Below, piece after piece: positions 8,665 to 46,139 of a stretch of DNA of 64,000 bases. The DNA is from Kofleriaceae bacterium (GTDB lineage: Bacteria > Myxococcota_A > Polyangia > Haliangiales > Haliangiaceae). The position numbers were made by a program, and so were the translations under genes. Under the pieces are notes generated by a model that saw only the letters and a program-made list of their open reading frames with translations, ran no database searches and was not told the DNA's origin. Each line of letters begins with the position of its first letter. Within the stretch, counting starts at the first letter, position 1. Where the stretch lies: NCBI GenBank assembly GCA_018058095.1, contig JAGPCO010000009.1:5560-69559 (forward strand). The letters are read 5' to 3'.

Positions 8665-10956
8665 CTACGCGGCGGCCCGGCCGCGGCTCGACGCCGGCCA
8701 CAGCCGCTCGAGCTCGGCCACCACCCGGCCCCGCCGCTCGGCGTCGGGGGCGGCGGCGCTGTCGATGCCGATGAGCTCCTCGAGCAGGGCCGCGACCCGG
8801 GCGTCGACCTTGGCCTGCTCGGCCGCGGGCGGCCCGTCGCTGCGGCGGGCGCGCACGGCGATGATCAGCCCACCGGTCAGCAGGCCGAGGACGAGCAGGC
8901 CGGCCAGGCGGGGCAGCCAGATCTTCCAGGCTGGCGGCACCGGCAGGCCGCGCACCTTCATCGCCATGCGCTGGCCCGGGCCGATGTCGAGGTTGCGCAC
9001 GACGTAGAACGCCATGCCCAGGCCGTTGCGCTCGGTGGTCGACCGCACGCCGGCGGGGACGTCGACGATGAGCCCGGGCGTCTGCTGGATGGCGAGCTGG
9101 CTGTCCTCGGCGCCCCACGGCAGGTCCCAGTCCCAGCGGGTCACGCCGCCCTCGATGCGCAACGAGAACGCACCATCGAACGAGGCGCCGCCCGGCGCCA
9201 GCGGCCGGCGGATGCGGAAGCCTTCGGCCTTGTCGGCCGTCACCAGCTGCTGGTCCTTGTCGGCCACGACCGCGCCGACGAAGCCGCGCGGCAGCTTGAT
9301 GAGCAGGCCGTCGGGGCCGTGCCGGTACGGGATCCACGACAGGTTGGCCAGGGTGAACCGGCCCTGGAAGCCGAGGTACTTGTCCTCGGCCGAGCCCGAC
9401 AGCCCGAACTGGAAGGTCACCCGCGGGTAGGCCAGCACGGTGGCCGAGCTGCCGCGGTCGGGCACCGGCTGGAACGGCAACGAGCGGTAGACCTGGCCGC
9501 CGAGCTTGGCCTCGGCGTACACCACCAGCTGGGTGTTGCCGTCGATGCCGTCGAAGGCGGCCACCCGCGGCGTCGCGCCCTCGCGCCAGATGAAGCCCAG
9601 CGCCAGGCGCAGGCCCTCGGCGCCGACCGTGAACGGCTCCGACTTCACGTCGGTCCCCGACAGGCTGGCCAGGACCCGGTAGCGGCCAGGCGCCAGCGCG
9701 AAGCGGGCCCGGCCGGCGCTGTCGGTGGTCGCGGTCGGCGGCGGCGGTGCGCCCTCGGCGGGCTCCTCGGCCATGACCGCCAGCAGCACGCCGTCGACGG
9801 CCTGGCGGCTGCCGCCGGTGCCGCCGCCGGCCAGCACCTCGAGGGTGCCGGCCGGGACGTCGGGGTTGGCGGCGGCGGTGCCGAACTGGCCGCGGATCTC
9901 GACCCGGCCGATCTGGGTCGGGCCGATCGGCTGGGTGCCCAGGGCCTGCCCGGTCTCGGCGTCGACCAGGGTCATCGTCCCGCCCTGGTCGCTGTTCTTG
10001 CTGATCAGCCCGACGGCGACCCGGCCGACCGGGGTGCCCGGCACCTGGTTGTCGAGCCGGGCGTAGTCGTCGACCCCGGGCTCGCTCGAGGTGCGCTTGT
10101 CGCCGGACAGGATGACGCGCACGCCGGTCTCGCCGCCCATCAGGATCGGCACCGACATGACGCGGTCGAACGACGGCCCGCGCGCCAGCTTGGCCAGCGC
10201 GTAGTAGGCGGTGCCACCCGACACGTCGAGGCCGGTCGCCACCACGCGGCCGGCGGCGTCGGAGGTCAGGCGCTGCAGCGTGACCTTGCCGTCGGCGCCG
10301 TAGCCGACCAGCGCGACCGGCTGCTGCGCCGGCGGGGTGGCGTCGCCGAAGTCGTCGTAGGTCAGGCGCACCGTGAGCGACCCGGGCGGGTCGGCCATCT
10401 CCGGGCGCGGCTGCCCGCTCATCTGCCGCGGCTCGGGCATGCCGCCGGCGGCGGCCGGGCCCGCCCCGGGGTGCTGGCTACCGTCGGTCGGCTCGGCCGC
10501 CGCCGCGCCGGCCGCGCCAGCCTCGGCCAGCGGCTTGGTCGTGAGCATCAGGCGCACGCCGCCGCTGCTCGGTGCGGGGAAGACCTGTGACACGACCTCG
10601 CCGGCCGGGCCGACCAGCTTGGCCTGCAGGCTGGCGCCAGCCGCCACGCCGCTGAACGTCGCGCGGCCCTCGCCGTCGGTGGTGGCGGTGCGGGCGACGC
10701 CGTCGACCAGCAGGGTCACCTCGGTCGCGCTCGGCGTCTTGCTGAAGTCGCCGTCGACGACCCGGACCAGCACGGTGCCGGCTGGCAGATCGGCCGCCGG
10801 CAGCGGGCGGCCGATGGCGGCGGCGACCTGGGCGTGCGCCAGTCGCTCGGTGCCGGGGACGAGGCCGGCGGCCAGTCCGAGGGCGGCCACCAGCAGCAGC
10901 GAGCGGGCGCGGCGCGCGGGTGCACCGCGGCGCGAGGTCGTGGTGGTGGCGTTCAT
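8665..10956 (-). CDS. Exported multi-domain protein with Cna-B/CarboxypepD-like modules
   Basis: 763 residues. An N-terminal signal ([17 protein letters not shown] then LAHAQ) leads to several beta-sandwich modules of carboxypeptidase-regulatory or Cna-B type ([55 protein letters not shown]). A membrane helix near 690-715 ([20 protein letters not shown]) is followed by a short charged cytoplasmic tail ([12 protein letters not shown]). Its ATG overlaps the stop of the CcmI-like gene (ATGA), and ccmA follows 13 bases after its stop. Translational coupling inside the Ccm operon implies a related role, perhaps presenting or scaffolding apocytochrome or copper/haem handling, but no CxxCH or other haem or metal motif is seen. 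Function unknown. Confidence 0.75.
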
Positions 10957-36634: not shown

Positions 36635-37573
36635 TCAGAGCGCGTCGACGCTGGCGTCGACGCTGGCGTCGGGCGGCATGGCCGCGTCGGGCGGCATGGC
36701 CGCGTCGGGCCCGGGCACGTCGAACGACGCCTCCGGGTTGTTGGTGGTCGCGCCGACGAAGGTGTCGAACTGGCCGCGGTACTGCTCGACCCCGGTCGCG
36801 GTCAGGCCGCGCACGGTGAAGGTGGCCGGGCCGAACGGCAGGTCGTTGATGACCTGCGGGAACTGGTCGGTCGACGGCCGGCACGGCTTGGGGTCGGCGC
36901 CGTCGACGCGCTGGCCGGTATCGGTCACCTGCGTGACCGGCAGCCCGCGCACCAGCAGGGTCAGGACCTGCTGCGCCACCACCGGGCTGGCCGCCGCACA
37001 CGGCTGGCCGCCCCACAGCAGGCGGAAGTAGAACGACCCGGTCAAGGTCGCCGTCCACCGGTCCCATGGGATGACGACCTCGTGCAGGGTGTTGCTGGCC
37101 AGCACCTCGATCGGCGCGGTGACCGGCGCGTTCACCAGGGACGCCCCGGCGGTGTTGAGGGGCGTCACCGTCGCCGTGTACGCACCGGGCGGCAGATCCG
37201 GGAACACCGCCTCGCGGTTGCCGCAGGACGGCTCCTGGCTGGCGCTGGCCGGACCGCTCATCTCGACCCGGACCTTGGACACCCGCAGGTCACCACACGA
37301 GTCGCCGTCGAAGCCGCGGCTCGGGTCCTTGTTGAACTCCCACTTCACGGTGGTGCGGGGCGGGATGTACGCCATACACACCCGGCAGCTGTCGAGCTCG
37401 TCGGCGTTGCCGTCGTCGCACTCCTCGCCGTCCTCCTCCACCCCGTTGCCGCACTCGGCTCCGCCGCCGCAGCCGGCGCTGGTCAGCACGTGCCAGCCGG
37501 CGGCCACGGTCAGGCCGACCGCGCCGAGCGCACCCAGGCGGCGCCACCGCTGTGGAGTCGCCGGCGCGGTCAC
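36635..37573 (-). CDS. Exported protein with DUF4215 Cys motif
   Basis: 312 residues from GTG 37573, overlapping the stop of the SIR2-like/TPR gene as GTGA, so translation is coupled to it. An N-terminal hydrophobic segment (LGALGAVGLTVAAGWHVL, then SAGC, a possible lipobox) leads to one cysteine repeat (CGNGVEEDGEECDDGN). Beta-rich domains follow with GAYTATVTPL and PFGPATFTVRGLTATG, like transthyretin/CarboxypepD modules. The C-terminal tail repeats PDAAMP twice and ends DASVDASVDAL. Coupling to a cytosolic giant is odd for an exported protein. Function unknown. Confidence 0.75.
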   Translation of the reverse strand: MTAPATPQRWRRLGALGAVGLTVAAGWHVLTSAGCGGGAECGNGVEEDGEECDDGNADELDSCRVCMAYIPPRTTVKWEFNKDPSRGFDGDSCGDLRVSKVRVEMSGPASASQEPSCGNREAVFPDLPPGAYTATVTPLNTAGASLVNAPVTAPIEVLASNTLHEVVIPWDRWTATLTGSFYFRLLWGGQPCAAASPVVAQQVLTLLVRGLPVTQVTDTGQRVDGADPKPCRPSTDQFPQVINDLPFGPATFTVRGLTATGVEQYRGQFDTFVGATTNNPEASFDVPGPDAAMPPDAAMPPDASVDASVDAL

Positions 37574-40500
37574 GCCTGCGCTCCGTCGCGGATGACCACG
37601 CCGAGGTGACGCCGCACCTGGAAGTAGCTCTCCGACACCGCGTACGCCAGCAGCTCGCGCAGGCGCTCCTTGACCGGCAGCGTCGACTGCGCCGCGTTCT
37701 CGGTGGCGATGACCCGGGCCGCGGTCTCGAGGTCGCCACACAGGATGAAGCCGGCGCGGTTGGCGGTGTGGTCGGTCGCGCTCTGCCAGCCGGTGATGAG
37801 GCCGTTGCCGACCCGCCCCGACAGCTTGGCGCCGAAGTCGCCGACCTGCTCGAGGATGGCGCTCGGCACCTGGCCGCGCACCAGCTGGGCCATGCGACGG
37901 GCCTCGTCCGAGGTGGCCTCGAACGGCTGGCCGTCGTGGCCGCGCAGGCGCGCGCCCGAGGCGGCGATGGCGCCGGCGAAGGCCGCCTCCAGCTTGGGCA
38001 GGGTGCCCAGGGCCATGGTCACGAACCGCTCGGGGCGGAGGTAGGCCATACGCTTGCCGATCTCGAACACCAGCTCGCGCTCGTCGGCCTTGCCGACGTG
38101 GGGCGCGCCGATGAGCAGCGACGGCACCAGCCGGCCGCGATCGGCGCCAGTGGTGTTGGCGACGCGCAGGCCGTCGCCGCCCTCCTGCAGCCAGATCATC
38201 GGCACCGGGTCGAGCCCGAGCACGCTGGCGGCGTAGCGGGCCGCGCGCGGGGCCGGGCGGCCATCGCGGTCGAGGTCGACCCGCCCGCCGAGGTCGAGGC
38301 CAAACGCGGTCGGCGGCTGCGCGGTCGAGCCGGCCAGCGCGCCCAGGGTCGACGCGAAGATGGCGCCGACGTGGCGGTCCTCGCGGCGGTGGATGATGGC
38401 CTTCTGCCACAGCTCCTCGGTCAGGCGCCGGCTGGCCGGGACGAACTGCGGCGCCCGGTAGCGGGCGTACATGGCGCGCTCGCTGTCGTCGGCGGCACCG
38501 AGCAACACCAGGGCCTGGCTCACGCACCAGGCCTTGTCGAGCTCGTGCTCCTCCCGGTACAGCTGGGCCAGCGCCTTGTAGTACTCGACGCGGTCCGGGC
38601 TGTGCTCGATCAGCACCTGCAGCTCGGTGATGGCGTCGCCGCGGCGGTCGGCGCCAGCCTCGAGGTACAGGTCGGCCAGCTGCTCGTGGCGCGACATGTC
38701 GTCGGGCGCGAGGTCGCAGGCGACCTGGAAGGCGGCGGTGGCCGACTCGTGGTCGCCGAGGTGGTCGAGGTAGATCTCGCCGATGCGGGTCCACAGCGGC
38801 ACGAGCTGGGCCGGCTCGGCGTCCTCGCCCAGCCGCTTGAGCTGGCGCCGATAGGCCCGGGCCAGGTTCTTCCAGTCCTTGCGCTCGGTCAGCAGCTTGT
38901 CGATGGCCTCGAACGCCCGCGGCGTGGTCGGCGCGTCGTCGAGGGCCGCCCCCAGCTTCTCGACCGCCAGGTCGGCGTCGCGCAGCTCGTCGCGGGCGAT
39001 GACGCCGGCGGCGTAGTGGTAGCGGGCGCGGAACGCCACGTCGTCCTCACCGACCGCGAGCTGGTCGAGGGTCTCGACCGCGCGCCGCCACTGCTTGGAC
39101 TCGGTGTACGCCTCGAGCAGCTTGTGCAGCAGCACGTGCGAGCCGGGCTGGACCTGCAGGCCCTCGAGGTAGGCGCTGACGGCGTTGGTGGTGTCGCGCA
39201 GCTTGCCGTGCAGGAGGTCGCCGACCTCCTCCAGCACCTTGGCCTTGGCCCCACCCTCGGTGGTCTCGGCCAGGGCCCGCTTGCAGTCGACCACGGTGCG
39301 CCAGTCGGCCCGGGCCGCGGCGGCGTCGGCCAGCGCGACCAGCGTCGGCACGTGCAGCGCCTCGCGCTCGAGCGCGCGCCGCCACGACAGCTCGGCCTTG
39401 CGCTCGTCGCCCAGGGCGCGCGCGCACTCGCCGAGGTGGAACCAGATCTCGGCGACCTGGCCGTCGGCCAGGCCGGTGCGGTGCCGGGCCAGGATCTCGC
39501 GATAGCGGCGATCGACCTCCTCCCACGCCTCGCCACCACCAGCCTGGCCGTCGCGGGCCTTGGCCAGGGTGAGCAGGACGCGGGCCAGGCCGAGCGAGGC
39601 CTCGAGCGAGTCGGCGTCGGCCTCGACCGCGGCGCGGTAGGCGGTGGCCGCCTTCTCGCTGCGGTGCAGGGCCTCGTAGGCGCGCCCGAGCTGGGCCTGC
39701 CGGCGCGCCTTCTCGAGGCGCTCGCCGCTGTCGGCGCGGCGGGCCAGCATCTCCAGCACCGGCAGGGCGTCGTCCCAGCGGCCGCTGGCGACCAGGGTGT
39801 CGGCGATGCGCTCGCCGGCCTCGACGTGGTCGGGGTCGAGCTTGAGCACGCGCTCGTACAGGCCGAGCGCACGCGGCTGGTCGTCCAGCTCGTCGCCGGC
39901 CATCTGCGCCGCGCGCCACAGCAGCTCGACGCGCTCGAGCCGGTTGCCGCAGGTCGCCTCGGCCCGGAGCAGGCCGTCGACGGCCGAGGCCCAGCTGCCG
40001 CGGCGGCCGTGCAGGTCGGCCAGGGCCCGCAGCGCGTCCTGGTTCTCGGGGTCGAGCGCCAGCGCCCGCTCGAGGTGGCGCTCGGCCAGCTCGGGATCCA
40101 TCAGCTGCTCGAGGGCGAGGCGGCCGGCCTCGGCCAGCATGGGCGCGCCGCCAGCGCCGTCGAGGCCGGCGTGCCGGACCAGGACGTCGACCGCGCGGTC
40201 CCACTGCTCGGTCCGCTGGTACATGCGGGCCAGCGCCGACAGCGCCTGCTTGTTGCCGTCGTCGAGCGCCAGCGCCTCGAGGTGAGCGTCGATGGCCCGG
40301 TGCGGGTCCGACAGCTCCTTCTCGTGGACGTGCCCGGCCTCGAGGTACAGCTCGACCCGCTGGGTCGGGCTCTTGGCCGCGGCGACGTGCTTCTCGAGCA
40401 CCGCCACCAGCTCGTACCACTGCGCCTGCTCGCGCAGCAGCCGCTCGAGCCCGCGGAAGGCGTCGTCGGCCGACGGCTCCAGCGCCAGCAGCTGCTCGTA

Positions 40501-42468
40501 GGCCGCCTTGGCCCGGGCCGCGGCGCCATCGCGATCGGCCAGCTCGGCCGCCAGCTTGCGCAGGGTAGCCGGCCGCTCGCCGGCCGGGCCGACCTGACCC
40601 AGCCGCTCGAGCGAGCGCAGGTAGTCGTCGGTGCGGCCGGTCTTGTCGTACAGGTCGACCAGGGCGCGCAGCGCGACCACGTCGGCCCCGTTCTTGGTCA
40701 GGGCCTGCTCGTGGCGGCTGATCGCCCCCTCGAGGTCGCCCAGCTTCTCGGCCCGCAGGGTGCCGAGCTCGTGGCGCAGCGCGGCGGCGCGGCCGGCGTC
40801 GCCCTGGTGCTCGCACACCTCGGCCCGGCGCTCGAGCACCTTGGCCAGGTTGGCCCAGCGCTCGCCCTGCCGGTACAGCCGCTCGAGCGCGGCCAGCGCG
40901 TCGTCGCTGTCGGCGTCGAGGTCGGCCGCAGCCTGGTAGGCCTCGATGGCCTTGGCGGTCGAGGCCAGCTGGCTCTCGCTCAGGTCACCCAGCGCCAGCA
41001 GCAGATCGACCTTGCGGCCGTCGTCGATCTCGACCGCGACGTGGGCGGCCAGCGCGTCGGCCAGCTCGGCCCACTTCTGCTGCTTGCGCAAGAGGTCGGC
41101 CATGGCGACGTGGGCGTCGCGGTTGCTGGCGTCGAGCTCGAGGGCCCGGCGCAGCGACGGGGTGGCGTAGTCGGCCCGGTCGAGCTTGCTGCCGTACCAG
41201 CGGCCCAGGCGGGCCCACCAGGCCGACGCCACCTGCGGATCGGTGACGTCGGTGGCGATCTGCGAGGCCTCGGCCACGAGCGCAGCCCAGCCGCCGGTGG
41301 CCGCGGCCAGCCGCTCGGCGTGGCCGGCGATCTCGGTCGAGGCCGGGTCGACCGCGCACGCGGTGGTCAGGGCCTCGAACGCGCGCGGCAGGTCGCCCAT
41401 GCCGGTCTCGTAGGTGTCGGCCAGCTGCCGCAGCAGCGCGGCGCGCTCGGCCGGCTCCTCGGCGTGCTCGATGCGGCCGAGGATGACCTCGGACACACGC
41501 TCGTGGTTACCCGCGCCGCGGGCCTGATGCTCGATGAGATCGATGGCGTCGCGCGCCTCACCCGGCTGGTCGGCCATGAGCGCGAGCCAGCCGTCGAGGT
41601 CGTCGGCGTCGGGCCGGGCCTGGTGCAGGGTCAGGCCGGCGGTGCGGCAGGCGTCGCGCAGGCTGGTCAGCCAGTCGATCATCGCCTTCTCCGACACCTC
41701 GTCCCCGGACTTGCCGGCCAGGTTGATGACCTGGATCTGGTGCTCGGCCATCAGCTCGTCGACGGTGACCGGCCCGAGGCCGGCGCCGAGGAAGTAGTGG
41801 GTGCCACGCGGCGGCTCGAACATGCCGAACAGACGGTCGAGCACGGCGGCCAGGTCGGGGTCGCCGAAGCGGAACCCGACGAAGACCAGGGTGCCGTCGA
41901 CGTACTGCTCGCGCGCGTAGTCGCGCAGGTCGACGGCGTGGGCCAGGGCGCGCCGGACCGAGCCCGGGGTGACGACGTAGCGCTCGAAGTCGCCCAGCAC
42001 CTTGATCAGGGTCCGGCGACGGGTCGACAGCGCGCCGAGGTCGGCGTAGGTCGCGACCCGCGCCGCCGGCCAGTCCTCGGGCGAGGCCAGCTCGAACGCG
42101 CGCTCGATCACGTCGCCGGGGAACGTGGTCCACACGTGGCGGAACGGCAGCTCGGCCAGGATCTTGGCCATGAGCGGGGTCTGGCCGGGGTGAGCCCACA
42201 GCTCCTGGACGATCCGGTCACACGCCTCGCCGCCGAGCGAGCGGGCGAGGAAGCCCACGGCGCGGACCAGGCTGCCCTTCGACAGCAGCTTTTCGAGGTC
42301 CTTGACCGCGGCGTCATCGCCGTCGCGGCCGCGCGCGGCCAGCTCCTGCGTGAGGCGCTCGAGGAGTTGCTTCCAGGAAGGGACACCGACTCCCGCACCG
42401 ACCACAAGGACGGCGCGACCAGACCTGATCTGGTCGATGAGGGACTCGGGGATCGTGTGCTCGTGCAT
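37570..42468 (-). CDS. SIR2-like domain fused to giant TPR array
   Basis: 1632 residues. Residues 1 to about 290 follow SIR2_2-type NAD-binding folds: GRAVLVVGAGVGVPSWKQLL (GAG at 24-26), HVWTTFPGDVIERA (112-123), TLIKVLGDFERYV (153-165) and LVFVGFRFGDPDLAAVLDRL. The family's catalytic Asn in TTN-x-D is Phe116 and the catalytic His of K-x-HG-D is Leu158, so NAD hydrolysis looks unlikely. The rest is one long series of TPR-type helical pairs (for example ALKALERLYRQGERW-like units), with AALD/LEPS spacing throughout. It is cytosolic and probably a very large scaffold. The ATG at 42468 has a G-rich site upstream. It is coupled to the gene at 36635. Confidence 0.85.
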   Translation of the reverse strand: MHEHTIPESLIDQIRSGRAVLVVGAGVGVPSWKQLLERLTQELAARGRDGDDAAVKDLEKLLSKGSLVRAVGFLARSLGGEACDRIVQELWAHPGQTPLMAKILAELPFRHVWTTFPGDVIERAFELASPEDWPAARVATYADLGALSTRRRTLIKVLGDFERYVVTPGSVRRALAHAVDLRDYAREQYVDGTLVFVGFRFGDPDLAAVLDRLFGMFEPPRGTHYFLGAGLGPVTVDELMAEHQIQVINLAGKSGDEVSEKAMIDWLTSLRDACRTAGLTLHQARPDADDLDGWLALMADQPGEARDAIDLIEHQARGAGNHERVSEVILGRIEHAEEPAERAALLRQLADTYETGMGDLPRAFEALTTACAVDPASTEIAGHAERLAAATGGWAALVAEASQIATDVTDPQVASAWWARLGRWYGSKLDRADYATPSLRRALELDASNRDAHVAMADLLRKQQKWAELADALAAHVAVEIDDGRKVDLLLALGDLSESQLASTAKAIEAYQAAADLDADSDDALAALERLYRQGERWANLAKVLERRAEVCEHQGDAGRAAALRHELGTLRAEKLGDLEGAISRHEQALTKNGADVVALRALVDLYDKTGRTDDYLRSLERLGQVGPAGERPATLRKLAAELADRDGAAARAKAAYEQLLALEPSADDAFRGLERLLREQAQWYELVAVLEKHVAAAKSPTQRVELYLEAGHVHEKELSDPHRAIDAHLEALALDDGNKQALSALARMYQRTEQWDRAVDVLVRHAGLDGAGGAPMLAEAGRLALEQLMDPELAERHLERALALDPENQDALRALADLHGRRGSWASAVDGLLRAEATCGNRLERVELLWRAAQMAGDELDDQPRALGLYERVLKLDPDHVEAGERIADTLVASGRWDDALPVLEMLARRADSGERLEKARRQAQLGRAYEALHRSEKAATAYRAAVEADADSLEASLGLARVLLTLAKARDGQAGGGEAWEEVDRRYREILARHRTGLADGQVAEIWFHLGECARALGDERKAELSWRRALEREALHVPTLVALADAAAARADWRTVVDCKRALAETTEGGAKAKVLEEVGDLLHGKLRDTTNAVSAYLEGLQVQPGSHVLLHKLLEAYTESKQWRRAVETLDQLAVGEDDVAFRARYHYAAGVIARDELRDADLAVEKLGAALDDAPTTPRAFEAIDKLLTERKDWKNLARAYRRQLKRLGEDAEPAQLVPLWTRIGEIYLDHLGDHESATAAFQVACDLAPDDMSRHEQLADLYLEAGADRRGDAITELQVLIEHSPDRVEYYKALAQLYREEHELDKAWCVSQALVLLGAADDSERAMYARYRAPQFVPASRRLTEELWQKAIIHRREDRHVGAIFASTLGALAGSTAQPPTAFGLDLGGRVDLDRDGRPAPRAARYAASVLGLDPVPMIWLQEGGDGLRVANTTGADRGRLVPSLLIGAPHVGKADERELVFEIGKRMAYLRPERFVTMALGTLPKLEAAFAGAIAASGARLRGHDGQPFEATSDEARRMAQLVRGQVPSAILEQVGDFGAKLSGRVGNGLITGWQSATDHTANRAGFILCGDLETAARVIATENAAQSTLPVKERLRELLAYAVSESYFQVRRHLGVVIRDGAQA

Positions 42469-42879: not shown

Positions 42880-43062
42880 CTAGGCCCAGCCCATGGCGAC
42901 GCAGTACGGGCAGCGCCCATCGATGTCGTCATCCCCGAACGCGTTGGAGTAGCCGCACACGTCACAGCTGGCGTACCCGTAGCGCACGTAGGCGCCACCG
43001 GCGACCTGCTTGATCTGCTGGCTGCCCAAGGTCCTGACCGCCAGCCGACGCCCCTTCTTCAT
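42880..43062 (-). CDS. Double-glycine-leader peptide, candidate RiPP precursor
   Basis: 60 residues from ATG 43062, with GAGGAG ending 2 bases before the start (short spacing). The first 23 residues, MKKGRRLAVRTLGSQQIKQV plus AGG, match the pattern of double-glycine leaders (basic start, L-x-V-x-TL, QI-x-x-V-x-GG) used by RiPP precursors and exported peptides cut by C39-peptidase ABC transporters. The 37-residue core has four cysteines in two CxxC pairs (CDVC, CPYC) with Tyr/Gly/Asp-rich spacers. Such a core could be crosslinked or, alternatively, be a small zinc ribbon. No modifying enzyme or transporter is within the window, so if it is a precursor it is an orphan. Confidence 0.65.
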   Translation of the reverse strand: MKKGRRLAVRTLGSQQIKQVAGGAYVRYGYASCDVCGYSNAFGDDDIDGRCPYCVAMGWA

Positions 43063-43075
43063 GGCTCCTCATCGA

Positions 43076-43091
43076 AGCAAGCCTGGTGCCA
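43076..43091 (-). promoter_or_regulatory. Sigma-54-like -24/-12 element upstream of peptide gene
   Basis: On the minus strand TGGCACCAGGCTTGCT matches the sigma-54 consensus TGGCACG-N4-TTGCW at every defined base but one. The predicted start of transcription would be about 43065, only 3 bases before the ATG and inside the GAGGAG, so promoter and ribosome site cannot both work as drawn. Either the message is leaderless or one motif is coincidental. Confidence 0.35.
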
Positions 43092-43178
43092 GGGGGTTCG
43101 TCGCCTGTTTCCGAGCGGTTAGCCCCCCGAGCAGGGTCGACACGTGCACGTCATGTCCCCAGCGGGGCGGGCCGCTGC

Positions 43179-46139
43179 TCACATCGTGCACACGCTCGGC
43201 ACCCCGATACACATGAACCCGGCCTCGACCACGCAGCCGCCGTCGCAGCCGTCGCCGGCGTCGGTGTCGCCGTCGTCGCACGCCTCGGTCACCGGCCCCT
43301 GGCTGTCGATGAACCCGTCGCCACACGTGGCCGGGCGGCACTGCCCGAGCAGGTCGACGCAGTCGTCGGCGTTCGAGCCGTTGCCATCGTCGCAGGTGTC
43401 GGTCCGCGGACCTTGCAGGTCGCGCACGCCGTCGCCGCACACGTTGGCCACACACGCGTTCGGGCAGTCGTCGAGGTTCGAGCTGTTGCCGTCGTCGCAC
43501 GTCTCACCGAGGCCGGTGCTGACGAACAGGTCGCCGCAGGTCGGCAGCTCGCAGCTGTTGCGGCAGCCGTCGGTGTCGACGGTGTTGCCGTCGTCGCAAC
43601 CCTCGCTGACCGGCCCCTGGTTGTCGATCACGCCATCGCCGCAGGTGTTGTCACGGCAGGTGTTGAGGCAGTCGTCGTCGTTGTTGTTGTTGCCGTCATC
43701 GCACTGCTCGCCCGGGTCGGGCGCGCCGTCGCCGCACTGCTCGACCAGCGTGCAGTTGTTGCGGCAGCCGTCGGTGTTGACCGCGTTGCCGTCGTCGCAC
43801 TGCTCGCTGCCGGCGCCGAGGAACCAGGTGATGCCGTCCCCGCACGTCGGGTCCTGGCAGGCGTTGGTGCAGTCGTCGCCGTTGACGGTGTTCAGGTCGT
43901 CGCAGCCCTCGAACAGCGACTGGGTCACGCCGTCGCCGCAGCTGCCCACGCGCAGGCACCCGGCCGAGCAGCCGTTGCCGCTGGCCACGGTGTTGCCGTC
44001 GTCGCAATCCTCGAAGTAGCTCTGCACCGTGTTGTCGCCGCAGCTGCCGACGCGACCACACGTGGCCGAGCAGCCGTTGCCATCGGCCGTGGTGTTGCCG
44101 TCGTCGCACGCCTCGAACAGCGGCTGGACCAGGCCGTCGCCGCAGCTGCCGACGCGGGTGCACGTGGCCGAGCAGCCGTTGCCGTCGGCCGTGGTGTTGC
44201 CGTCGTCGCACGCCTCGGCCAGGGTGTTGATCACGCCGTCGCCGCAGGCGGCGGTCACGCAGGTGGCGCGGCAGCCGTCGGTGTCGACCGTGTTGCCGTC
44301 GTCGCAGGTCTCGACGCCAGGGCTGGCGCCGTCGATCACGCTGTCGCCGCAGCGCGCCACCACGCAGGTGTTGCGGCAGTTGTCGGTGTCGACCGCGTTG
44401 CCGTCGTCGCACTGCTCGCTGCCGCCGCCCTGGTTGAAGGTCACGCCGTCGCCGCAGGTCGGGCTGCGGCACGCCGTGGTGCAGGCGTCGTTGTTGTTGC
44501 TGTTGCCGTCGTCGCACTGCTCGCCCGGTTCGGTCACGTTGTTGCCGCACCGGGCCAGCTGGCAGCCGTCGTCGCAGCCGTCGTCGTCGACCAGGTTGCC
44601 GTCGTCGCACTGCTCGCCGGCCAGCAGGTTGAGCTGGCCGTCCCCGCACTGCGGCGCGGTGCAGTCGGCGTCGCACCCGGCGGCCAGCCCGCCGGCGTCA
44701 CAGGTCTCGCCCCGGGCCGGGTTGACGTGGCCATCGCCGCACAGGCCGGGCGTGCAGTCGCTGTCGCACGCCAGGGTGTGGCCGCCGACCGTGCCCGGAT
44801 CGCAGGTCTCCGGGCTCGGGCCAGCGCCGTTGACGAAGCCATCACCGCAGGTGCGGGTGGTGCAGTCAGCGTCACAGCTGGCGCTGTTGCCGCTGTCGTC
44901 GCAGGTCTCGCCGGCGGCCGGGTTGACCGTGGCGTCGCCACACCGGGCGATCGTGCAGTCGGCGTCGCAGGTGGCGGCGAAGCCACCGACGCTGCCGGGG
45001 TCGCACTGCTCCGGGCTGGGGCCGGCGCCGTTGACCAGGCCGTCGCCGCACACCCGGAGCGAGCAGTCGGCGTCGCAGGTGGCGCTGAACGCGCCGACCG
45101 CCCCCGGGTCACACGCCTCGCCGGCCAGGGTGTTGACCCGGGTGTCGCCGCACACCGGGACCGAGCAGTCGCCGTCACAGCTGGCGCTGTCGACGCTGCC
45201 GAGGTCGCACTGCTCGCCCGGATCGACCAGGCCGTTGCCGCACCCGGTGCCGCCGCGGCAGTCGTCGCGGCAGGTCGGGTCGCCGGGGTCGCCGTCGTCG
45301 CACACCTCGTGCAGGGCCGAGTCGGGGTCGTGGATGCCGTTGCCGCACGCCTCCTCCGACAGGCAGTTGGCGCTGCAGCCGTCGCCCGAGTTCTGGTTGC
45401 CGTCGTCGCACACCTCGGCGCAGCCTGTGCCCTGGGCCGACGCGGTCAGGCAGGCCGGGTTGTCGCGCCCGAGCGGCAGGTGGTCGTCGAGCTCGCCGTT
45501 GCCGCACGTGTTGTCCGACTGGCAGTCGTTCCGGCACGCATCGTTGGGGTCGGTGTTGCCGTCGTCACACACCTCGCCCGGGTCGACCACCATGTTGCCG
45601 CACTGCTCGAGCCGGCACAGCGGGCTGCAGGTGTCGCCCGGGTCGTTGTTGCCGTCGTCGCACTGCTCGCCAGCCTGCATGTTGACCTTGCCGTCGCCGC
45701 ACCGGCTGGTGCTGCAGTCGCGGTTGCAGTCGGCGCTGTCGGCGCCGCCCATACCGTTGTCGCACTGCTCGCCGGCGACCAGGTTGAGGGCGCCGTCGCC
45801 GCACTGCGCCGGGGTGCAGTCGTCGTCGCAGCTGGCCGACGGCCCGGCGTCGTCGCACGCCTCCGTGGTCGGGGCCTGGCCGTCGACGTGGCCGTCGCCG
45901 CAGCGCGCCGCCTGGCAGGCGGCGCAGTCGTCGCCATCACTCATGTTGCCGTCGTCGCACTCCTCGCCGGTGTCGACCGCGCCGTTGCCGCACTTGCTGG
46001 CGGTGCAGCCGGTGCCGTCGGCGGTGCACGAGAACCCCTCGGGGCACACCACGCCGGAGCTGCACTCGAGCGTGTTGCTGCCGTAGCAGCCCACCGACGC
46101 CAGGGCGGCGGCGGCGAGGGTGACGAGCGCGGCGCGCAT
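43179..46139 (-). CDS. Cysteine-repeat (DUF4215) lipoprotein, 27 repeats
   Basis: 986 residues from ATG 46139, overlapping the preceding stop as TGATG. Lipoprotein signal VTLAAAALASVGCYG. After one EB-like segment (CPEGFSCTADGTGC), the protein is a continuous tandem array; I count 27 CG(D/N) units, each about 30-40 residues, of the form CGDG-x-ECDDGN-x-DGC-x-C. This is the DUF4215 / Myxococcus cysteine-rich repeat family. It would form a long, disulphide-stapled rod on the cell surface. The protein ends FMCIGVPSVCTM without an MYXO-CTERM sorting tail. Many repeats are near-identical at DNA level (GTTGCCGTCGTCGCA on the plus strand), so slippage is likely. Confidence 0.88.
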   Translation of the reverse strand: MRAALVTLAAAALASVGCYGSNTLECSSGVVCPEGFSCTADGTGCTASKCGNGAVDTGEECDDGNMSDGDDCAACQAARCGDGHVDGQAPTTEACDDAGPSASCDDDCTPAQCGDGALNLVAGEQCDNGMGGADSADCNRDCSTSRCGDGKVNMQAGEQCDDGNNDPGDTCSPLCRLEQCGNMVVDPGEVCDDGNTDPNDACRNDCQSDNTCGNGELDDHLPLGRDNPACLTASAQGTGCAEVCDDGNQNSGDGCSANCLSEEACGNGIHDPDSALHEVCDDGDPGDPTCRDDCRGGTGCGNGLVDPGEQCDLGSVDSASCDGDCSVPVCGDTRVNTLAGEACDPGAVGAFSATCDADCSLRVCGDGLVNGAGPSPEQCDPGSVGGFAATCDADCTIARCGDATVNPAAGETCDDSGNSASCDADCTTRTCGDGFVNGAGPSPETCDPGTVGGHTLACDSDCTPGLCGDGHVNPARGETCDAGGLAAGCDADCTAPQCGDGQLNLLAGEQCDDGNLVDDDGCDDGCQLARCGNNVTEPGEQCDDGNSNNNDACTTACRSPTCGDGVTFNQGGGSEQCDDGNAVDTDNCRNTCVVARCGDSVIDGASPGVETCDDGNTVDTDGCRATCVTAACGDGVINTLAEACDDGNTTADGNGCSATCTRVGSCGDGLVQPLFEACDDGNTTADGNGCSATCGRVGSCGDNTVQSYFEDCDDGNTVASGNGCSAGCLRVGSCGDGVTQSLFEGCDDLNTVNGDDCTNACQDPTCGDGITWFLGAGSEQCDDGNAVNTDGCRNNCTLVEQCGDGAPDPGEQCDDGNNNNDDDCLNTCRDNTCGDGVIDNQGPVSEGCDDGNTVDTDGCRNSCELPTCGDLFVSTGLGETCDDGNSSNLDDCPNACVANVCGDGVRDLQGPRTDTCDDGNGSNADDCVDLLGQCRPATCGDGFIDSQGPVTEACDDGDTDAGDGCDGGCVVEAGFMCIGVPSVCTM

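Follow-up and report, generated by a model that had tools for sequence, protein, structure and literature searches.

Prochlorosins and synechococsins are lanthipeptides whose precursors are scattered over the genomes of picocyanobacteria (PMC10783134). In Myxococcus xanthus, sigma-54 and Nla28 control PKS/NRPS genes through a half site, CT(C/G)CG(C/G)AG, and through promoters that are mostly intragenic (PMC7910581). Here, sequence comparison groups nine dispersed single-gene loci, which share a conserved leader, ligand pattern and promoter layout, into one family in the genome of a Kofleriaceae bacterium, whose gene content points to a myxobacterium. One of the nine lies in the window, by which is meant the whole stretch of 64,000 nucleotides that was analysed (Table 1).

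Table 1. Features of the peptide locus, in positions of the window.
Feature	Position	Strand	Remarks
GG-leader peptide gene, 60 aa	42880..43062	minus	ATG at 43062, stop at 42880
Leader, residues 1-23, GG at its end	42994..43062	minus	From alignment with the eight paralogues
Core, residues 24-60, with YVRYGYASC motif and two CxxC pairs, zinc-ribbon-like	42883..42993	minus	
Sigma-54-like -24/-12 element, TGGCACCAGGCTTGCT	43076..43091	minus	Predicted transcription start near 43065
GAGGAG, at or upstream of the predicted transcript start	43065..43070	minus	Preliminary description and our own reading
Proximal GTGCAC palindrome, putative activator site	43144..43149		
Distal GTGCAC palindrome, putative activator site	43186..43191		Within the last codons of gene 43179-46139

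The ORF, which translates as MKKGRRLAVRTLGSQQIKQVAGGAYVRYGYASCDVCGYSNAFGDDDIDGRCPYCVAMGWA*, is a real gene. Only the peptide frame has positive coding log-odds (+16.7; the remaining five lie between -20 and -63), and its codon usage matches that of the genome. A chance origin is untenable because the same genome (7.57 Mb in 227 contigs) holds eight paralogues, found by a peptide search and then a profile search, with profile E-values from 1.3e-10 to 2.1e-24. In about 390 kb of this genome, from regions partly picked because they hold such peptides, 438 short ATG ORFs were counted. Only five of them have both a GG-leader-like start and two Cys pairs, and all five are GG-leader peptides treated here. 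The gene is solitary, between long minus-strand genes at 37570-42468 and 43179-46139; the latter, which adjoins it, encodes a long Cys-rich protein with CGDG...E.CDDGN repeats. The preliminary description of this DNA had pointed to the leader, its GG, both CxxC pairs and the GAGGAG, and all are present as described, on the minus strand. It had also called the peptide an orphan, a label overturned by the eight paralogues and by the promoter layout that the nine have in common.

The paralogues reside on contigs C67, C27 (three within about 4.4 kb), C181, C49, C150 and C188, each as its own small gene flanked by unrelated genes. No DNA similarity extends beyond about 50 nt among the loci, which are therefore diverged paralogues and not recent mobile copies; recent mobile cassettes were ruled out as the origin of the family on this ground. 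The nine align over a basic leader of the form MKK..R..L.PR.L....L....GG, followed directly by R-[YFL]-G-x3-C-x(1,2)-C, with M1, L12, G22, R27, G29, C33 and C36 as the invariant columns. The leader ends in GG, GA or GS, and the spacing of its hydrophobic residues is conserved. The earlier proposal of a double-glycine-type leader thus holds for all nine, in a form like that of the GG leaders of related genomes. Homologues that kept the CxxC pairs and had lost the leader had been named as evidence against it; every homologue found keeps both. A search of 193 related genomes gave no clear member of the family, the best match being a GG peptide of the same genus with a different core (E = 1.7e-4), and none was found in the viral contigs and plasmids searched. 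The sole match of the window protein among GTDB contigs, L085, proved spurious, with neither leader nor Cys pattern.

Each of the nine cores contains two Cys/His pairs and no more. One or two residues separate the partners of a pair, and 4-14 residues lie between the pairs. The pairs are CxxC..CxxC in four members, CxxC..CxC in two, and CxC..CxxC, CxxC..CxH and CxC..HxC in one each. Two such pairs are found in 9/9 members of the family and in 0/38 other GG-leader peptides from the same genome and bacterial family, a difference for which the Fisher p of 7e-10 is a guide only, as the test came after the pattern had been recognised. Compared with other GG-leader peptides, the cores are low in Ser/Thr (8% vs 19%) and rich in aromatics (18% vs 5%), and their alignment has no conserved Ser/Thr column. 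Seven members have four Cys, while in C181 and C49 three of the paired positions are Cys and the fourth is His (CGH and WHSC). A paired Cys that gives way to His fits a role as metal ligand and does not fit thioethers or disulfides.

Zinc ribbons are the only recurrent Pfam resemblance in the family, weak and always below the cut-offs. Zn_ribbon_3 matches C27c at 1.4e-4, a rubredoxin-like family matches C27b at 0.005, and several ribbons match C67; Zn_ribbon_PF0610 and Zn_ribbon_8 reach 0.02-0.03. The best score in the family is 21.7 bits, against a curated cut-off of 27. The other six members, including the window protein, lack a zinc-ribbon match in Pfam, and the window protein matched no Pfam family of any kind. 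Nothing in the PDB matched significantly by sequence. Single-sequence AlphaFold2 models of the full peptide and of the core were poor (pLDDT 65-66), and a fold search with these low-confidence models returned nothing significant. The ligand pattern suggests that the mature part is probably a zinc-binding mini-protein. A GG-leader precursor and a zinc ribbon had been set out in the preliminary description as alternatives; the likeliest truth joins the two, with a GG leader in front of a zinc-ribbon-like core.

The upstream sequences of the nine genes reveal a common promoter layout. The sigma-54-like element of the window gene has the form TGGCAC-N5-TTGCT, and in all nine members the best -24/-12 match begins 28-30 nt upstream of the start codon (TGGCCCAGCGCTTGCT in C67, TGGAACACGGTTTGCT in C27b). 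The elements score 8.2-17.6 against a mean of 0.44 for 284 control genes (p = 7e-7), with weights set from a sigma-54 consensus of which the string, not the weights, agrees with PMC7910581. The weakest are those of C181 and C27c; GG and GC ten bases apart are kept in eight of the nine, including the window gene, and C181 has CG for GG. Since the -12 C lies at 43077, transcription of the window gene should start near 43065, three bases upstream of the start codon. The GAGGAG coincides with this predicted start and so may not be a ribosome-binding site, and several paralogues have no sequence like it. The peptides are not alone in this layout: in 6/282 ordinary genes a similar element lies at -27 to -29, hinting that near-leaderless sigma-54 transcripts are a wider habit of this genome. 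Ordinary genes that have a sigma-54-like box in this range are found at L118 (9046, 11961 and 13217), L043 (1327) and L041 (15021 and 5815), and several of their products look exported.

GTGCAC palindromes are present upstream of all nine members, often near -120 and -86, giving 15 sites where 0.20 would be expected (P = 3e-23). The top 6- and 7-mers in a comparison with 147 control upstream regions were TGCACA, GTGCAC and GTGCACA, the last occurring in eight of the nine members and in one of the 147 controls. Across the genome, the pattern of GTGCAC followed by a -24/-12 element is not enriched by count (41 matches vs 47 in the control), and inside genes it occurs at the control rate. Among the 28 genome-wide matches that were checked, the intergenic ones were one doubtful site and five peptide promoters, namely those of the family that conform to the pattern; it is the intergenic placement, not the count, that carries the signal. 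A repeat-rich GTGCAC match on C208 and two tandem CAGGTGCACC sites were examined and set aside.

C39-peptidase ABC exporters, which the preliminary description had said to look for in the genome, are encoded there. The best of six C39 matches, at C27:12073-14403, is a C39-ABC exporter flanked by a pair of HlyD genes, and another C39-ABC exporter is found on C92. Positions 5564-16677 of L115 (C27:4000-23900) make up a complete type I secretion locus that includes this C39 exporter, the two HlyD and an FHA/sigma-54 activator, with an outer-membrane efflux gene in divergent orientation. The locus also encodes two larger proteins, of 204 and 391 aa, that have GG-like starts and belong to no known family. 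The regulator combines FHA, Sigma54_activat and Fis-type HTH domains and has a GSFTGA loop. Three family members lie on the same contig about 72 kb away, and no exporter was found adjoining any of the nine. No GTGCAC cluster was seen upstream of the exporter, its regulator or LanBC, so the link of these genes to the peptides is circumstantial. A 1300-aa protein with an embedded C39-like stretch is encoded at 1803-5705 of L119 (C157).

Other genomes of the bacterial family hold dispersed GG-leader peptides whose leaders resemble those of lanthipeptides and whose cores are of a Ser/Thr-Cys type; it is the core that sets the nine apart from them. About a third of those inspected have a sigma-54-like element at about -29. 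One genome, G020, has some fifteen dispersed peptides of this kind (L211, L217-L229), some with a sigma-54-like box at -29. L089:4145 (plus strand) and L196 are orthologous GG-leader peptides with Gly-rich tails from two genomes of the same genus; a TraR-box-like palindrome, TTGTGCAGATCGATCTGCACGA, lies upstream of the L089 peptide. The core of another GG-leader peptide, L141 (C223:7949), is very short (MKKSAKLPPVTTKRPGALTLTRTTVHTLEANQLAGVQGGRIGMDATNRPTTD), and two GTGCA half sites lie upstream of it. On C130 (L124, minus strand), a LanC-like gene at about 9138-10217, with no LanB alongside, follows a 57-aa precursor-like ORF at 10341-10514 that has a lanthipeptide-like leader.

The best explanation, for which we judge the chances to be about even, is a dispersed sigma-54 regulon of GG-leader peptides that are trimmed and exported by a C39 exporter and bind metal in their mature part. 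The regulon is predicted to depend on RpoN and on an enhancer-binding protein, which would bind GTGCAC and activate the sigma-54 RNA polymerase to produce nine mRNAs that start about 3 nt upstream of the start codon. Export and cleavage are predicted to follow when a C39-peptidase ABC exporter, for which the C27 type I system adjoining the FHA-domain sigma-54 activator is the best candidate, recognises the leader and cuts after the GG. The released core, about 33-65 residues long, would then act as a mini zinc ribbon, its four Cys/His ligands holding a single zinc or similar ion. On this view, the nine would be co-expressed, diversified extracellular mini-proteins, whose predicted activity and role outside the cell may be those of signals, antagonists or metal binders.

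The preliminary description favoured a RiPP precursor. On such a reading, the peptides would be modified in trans by a stand-alone enzyme such as the class I LanB/LanC of C2, then cut and exported, with their Cys in thioether or other cross-links. One enzyme serving scattered precursors is known for the prochlorosins (PMC10783134), and the lanthipeptide enzymes that the preliminary description had said to look for are present: a LanB/LanC pair on C2, plus a further LanC on C130. Nothing was found that links the pair to the nine peptides, and the genome has one SPASM protein only. Some other GG leaders of the genome and the bacterial family match or approach NF038153, the class I lanthipeptide leader model, and other GG peptides share the sigma-54-like layout, but none of the nine members matches that model. 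The scarcity of Ser/Thr in the cores, with two Cys/His pairs conserved in place of any Ser/Thr column, and the Cys-to-His swaps at two pair positions also speak against this reading, and we consider a modified RiPP core improbable.

Bacteriocins of class II or pheromones would share the GG leader and a C39 exporter, their CxxC pairs being left unmodified and oxidised to disulfides outside the cell after cleavage. The small, aromatic-rich cores, the four Cys of seven members and the weak resemblance (E = 0.14) that the window peptide bears to EntF induction factors are in keeping with this, but the three paired Cys and single His of C181 and C49, together with CxxCG and CPxC, which are zinc-knuckle signatures, make it very unlikely. 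An alternative that keeps the zinc-ribbon-like core places the mini-proteins inside the cell, for example as regulators or adaptors, with the GG-like N-terminus as a binding tail and not an export leader. It would account for the lack of an exporter beside any member and for the conservation of R-[YFL]-G right after the GG, a part of the core, which would be unusual for freely varying cargo. However, the leader has the same form as GG leaders on peptides of this and related genomes that are not zinc-ribbon-like, and the genome does encode C39 exporters; an intracellular role is therefore unlikely.

If the exported metal-binding regulon is correct, zinc-ribbon-like mini-proteins join the known cargo of C39 peptide exporters, and peptide regulons under sigma-54 can be built with one gene per locus. 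Genome mining based on clusters misses such a regulon because no biosynthetic gene adjoins the precursors. The common promoter layout offers a handle for finding such peptides and names a candidate activator. Tentatively, the nine could represent a new class of secreted peptides, namely GG-exported zinc-ribbon mini-proteins, diversified within one genome, switched by sigma-54 and a GTGCAC activator and expressed from near-leaderless mRNAs. In the literature searched, no relevant report described GG-leader or lanthipeptide precursors of myxobacteria as being under sigma-54 control.

Each of the known systems resembles the family in part. The zinc ribbons and rubredoxin-like knuckles (Zn_ribbon_3, RUBY_RBDX, Zn_ribbon_PF0610) share the CxxCG ... 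CPxC pattern, and three paralogues give weak profile matches to them, but the family has a GG leader in front and CxC, CxH and HxC variants. NF038153 (lant_leader_L1a) describes leaders of similar form, whereas the nine fail to match it and their cores are not lanthionine-like. Class II bacteriocins and microcins with C39-peptidase ABC transporters also have GG leaders, and the genome has a candidate C39 exporter with HlyD and an outer-membrane partner; here, however, the exporter is not beside the gene, the core is zinc-ribbon-like and nine loci appear to be co-regulated. With the prochlorosins, the family shares dispersed, solitary precursor genes and machinery encoded elsewhere, but their leaders are of the Nif11 type and a single LanM makes their lanthionine cores (PMC10783134), whereas the present family has Ser/Thr-poor cores with two Cys/His pairs and a common sigma-54-like promoter. 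The M. xanthus sigma-54/Nla28 system likewise places a -24/-12 promoter and repeated upstream activator sites before natural-product genes (PMC7910581), while in the present family the genes encode peptides, the site is GTGCAC and the promoters are intergenic and keep a constant spacing to the start codon. Neither the prochlorosin (PMC10783134) nor the Nla28 (PMC7910581) parallel has the combination seen in the nine-peptide family.
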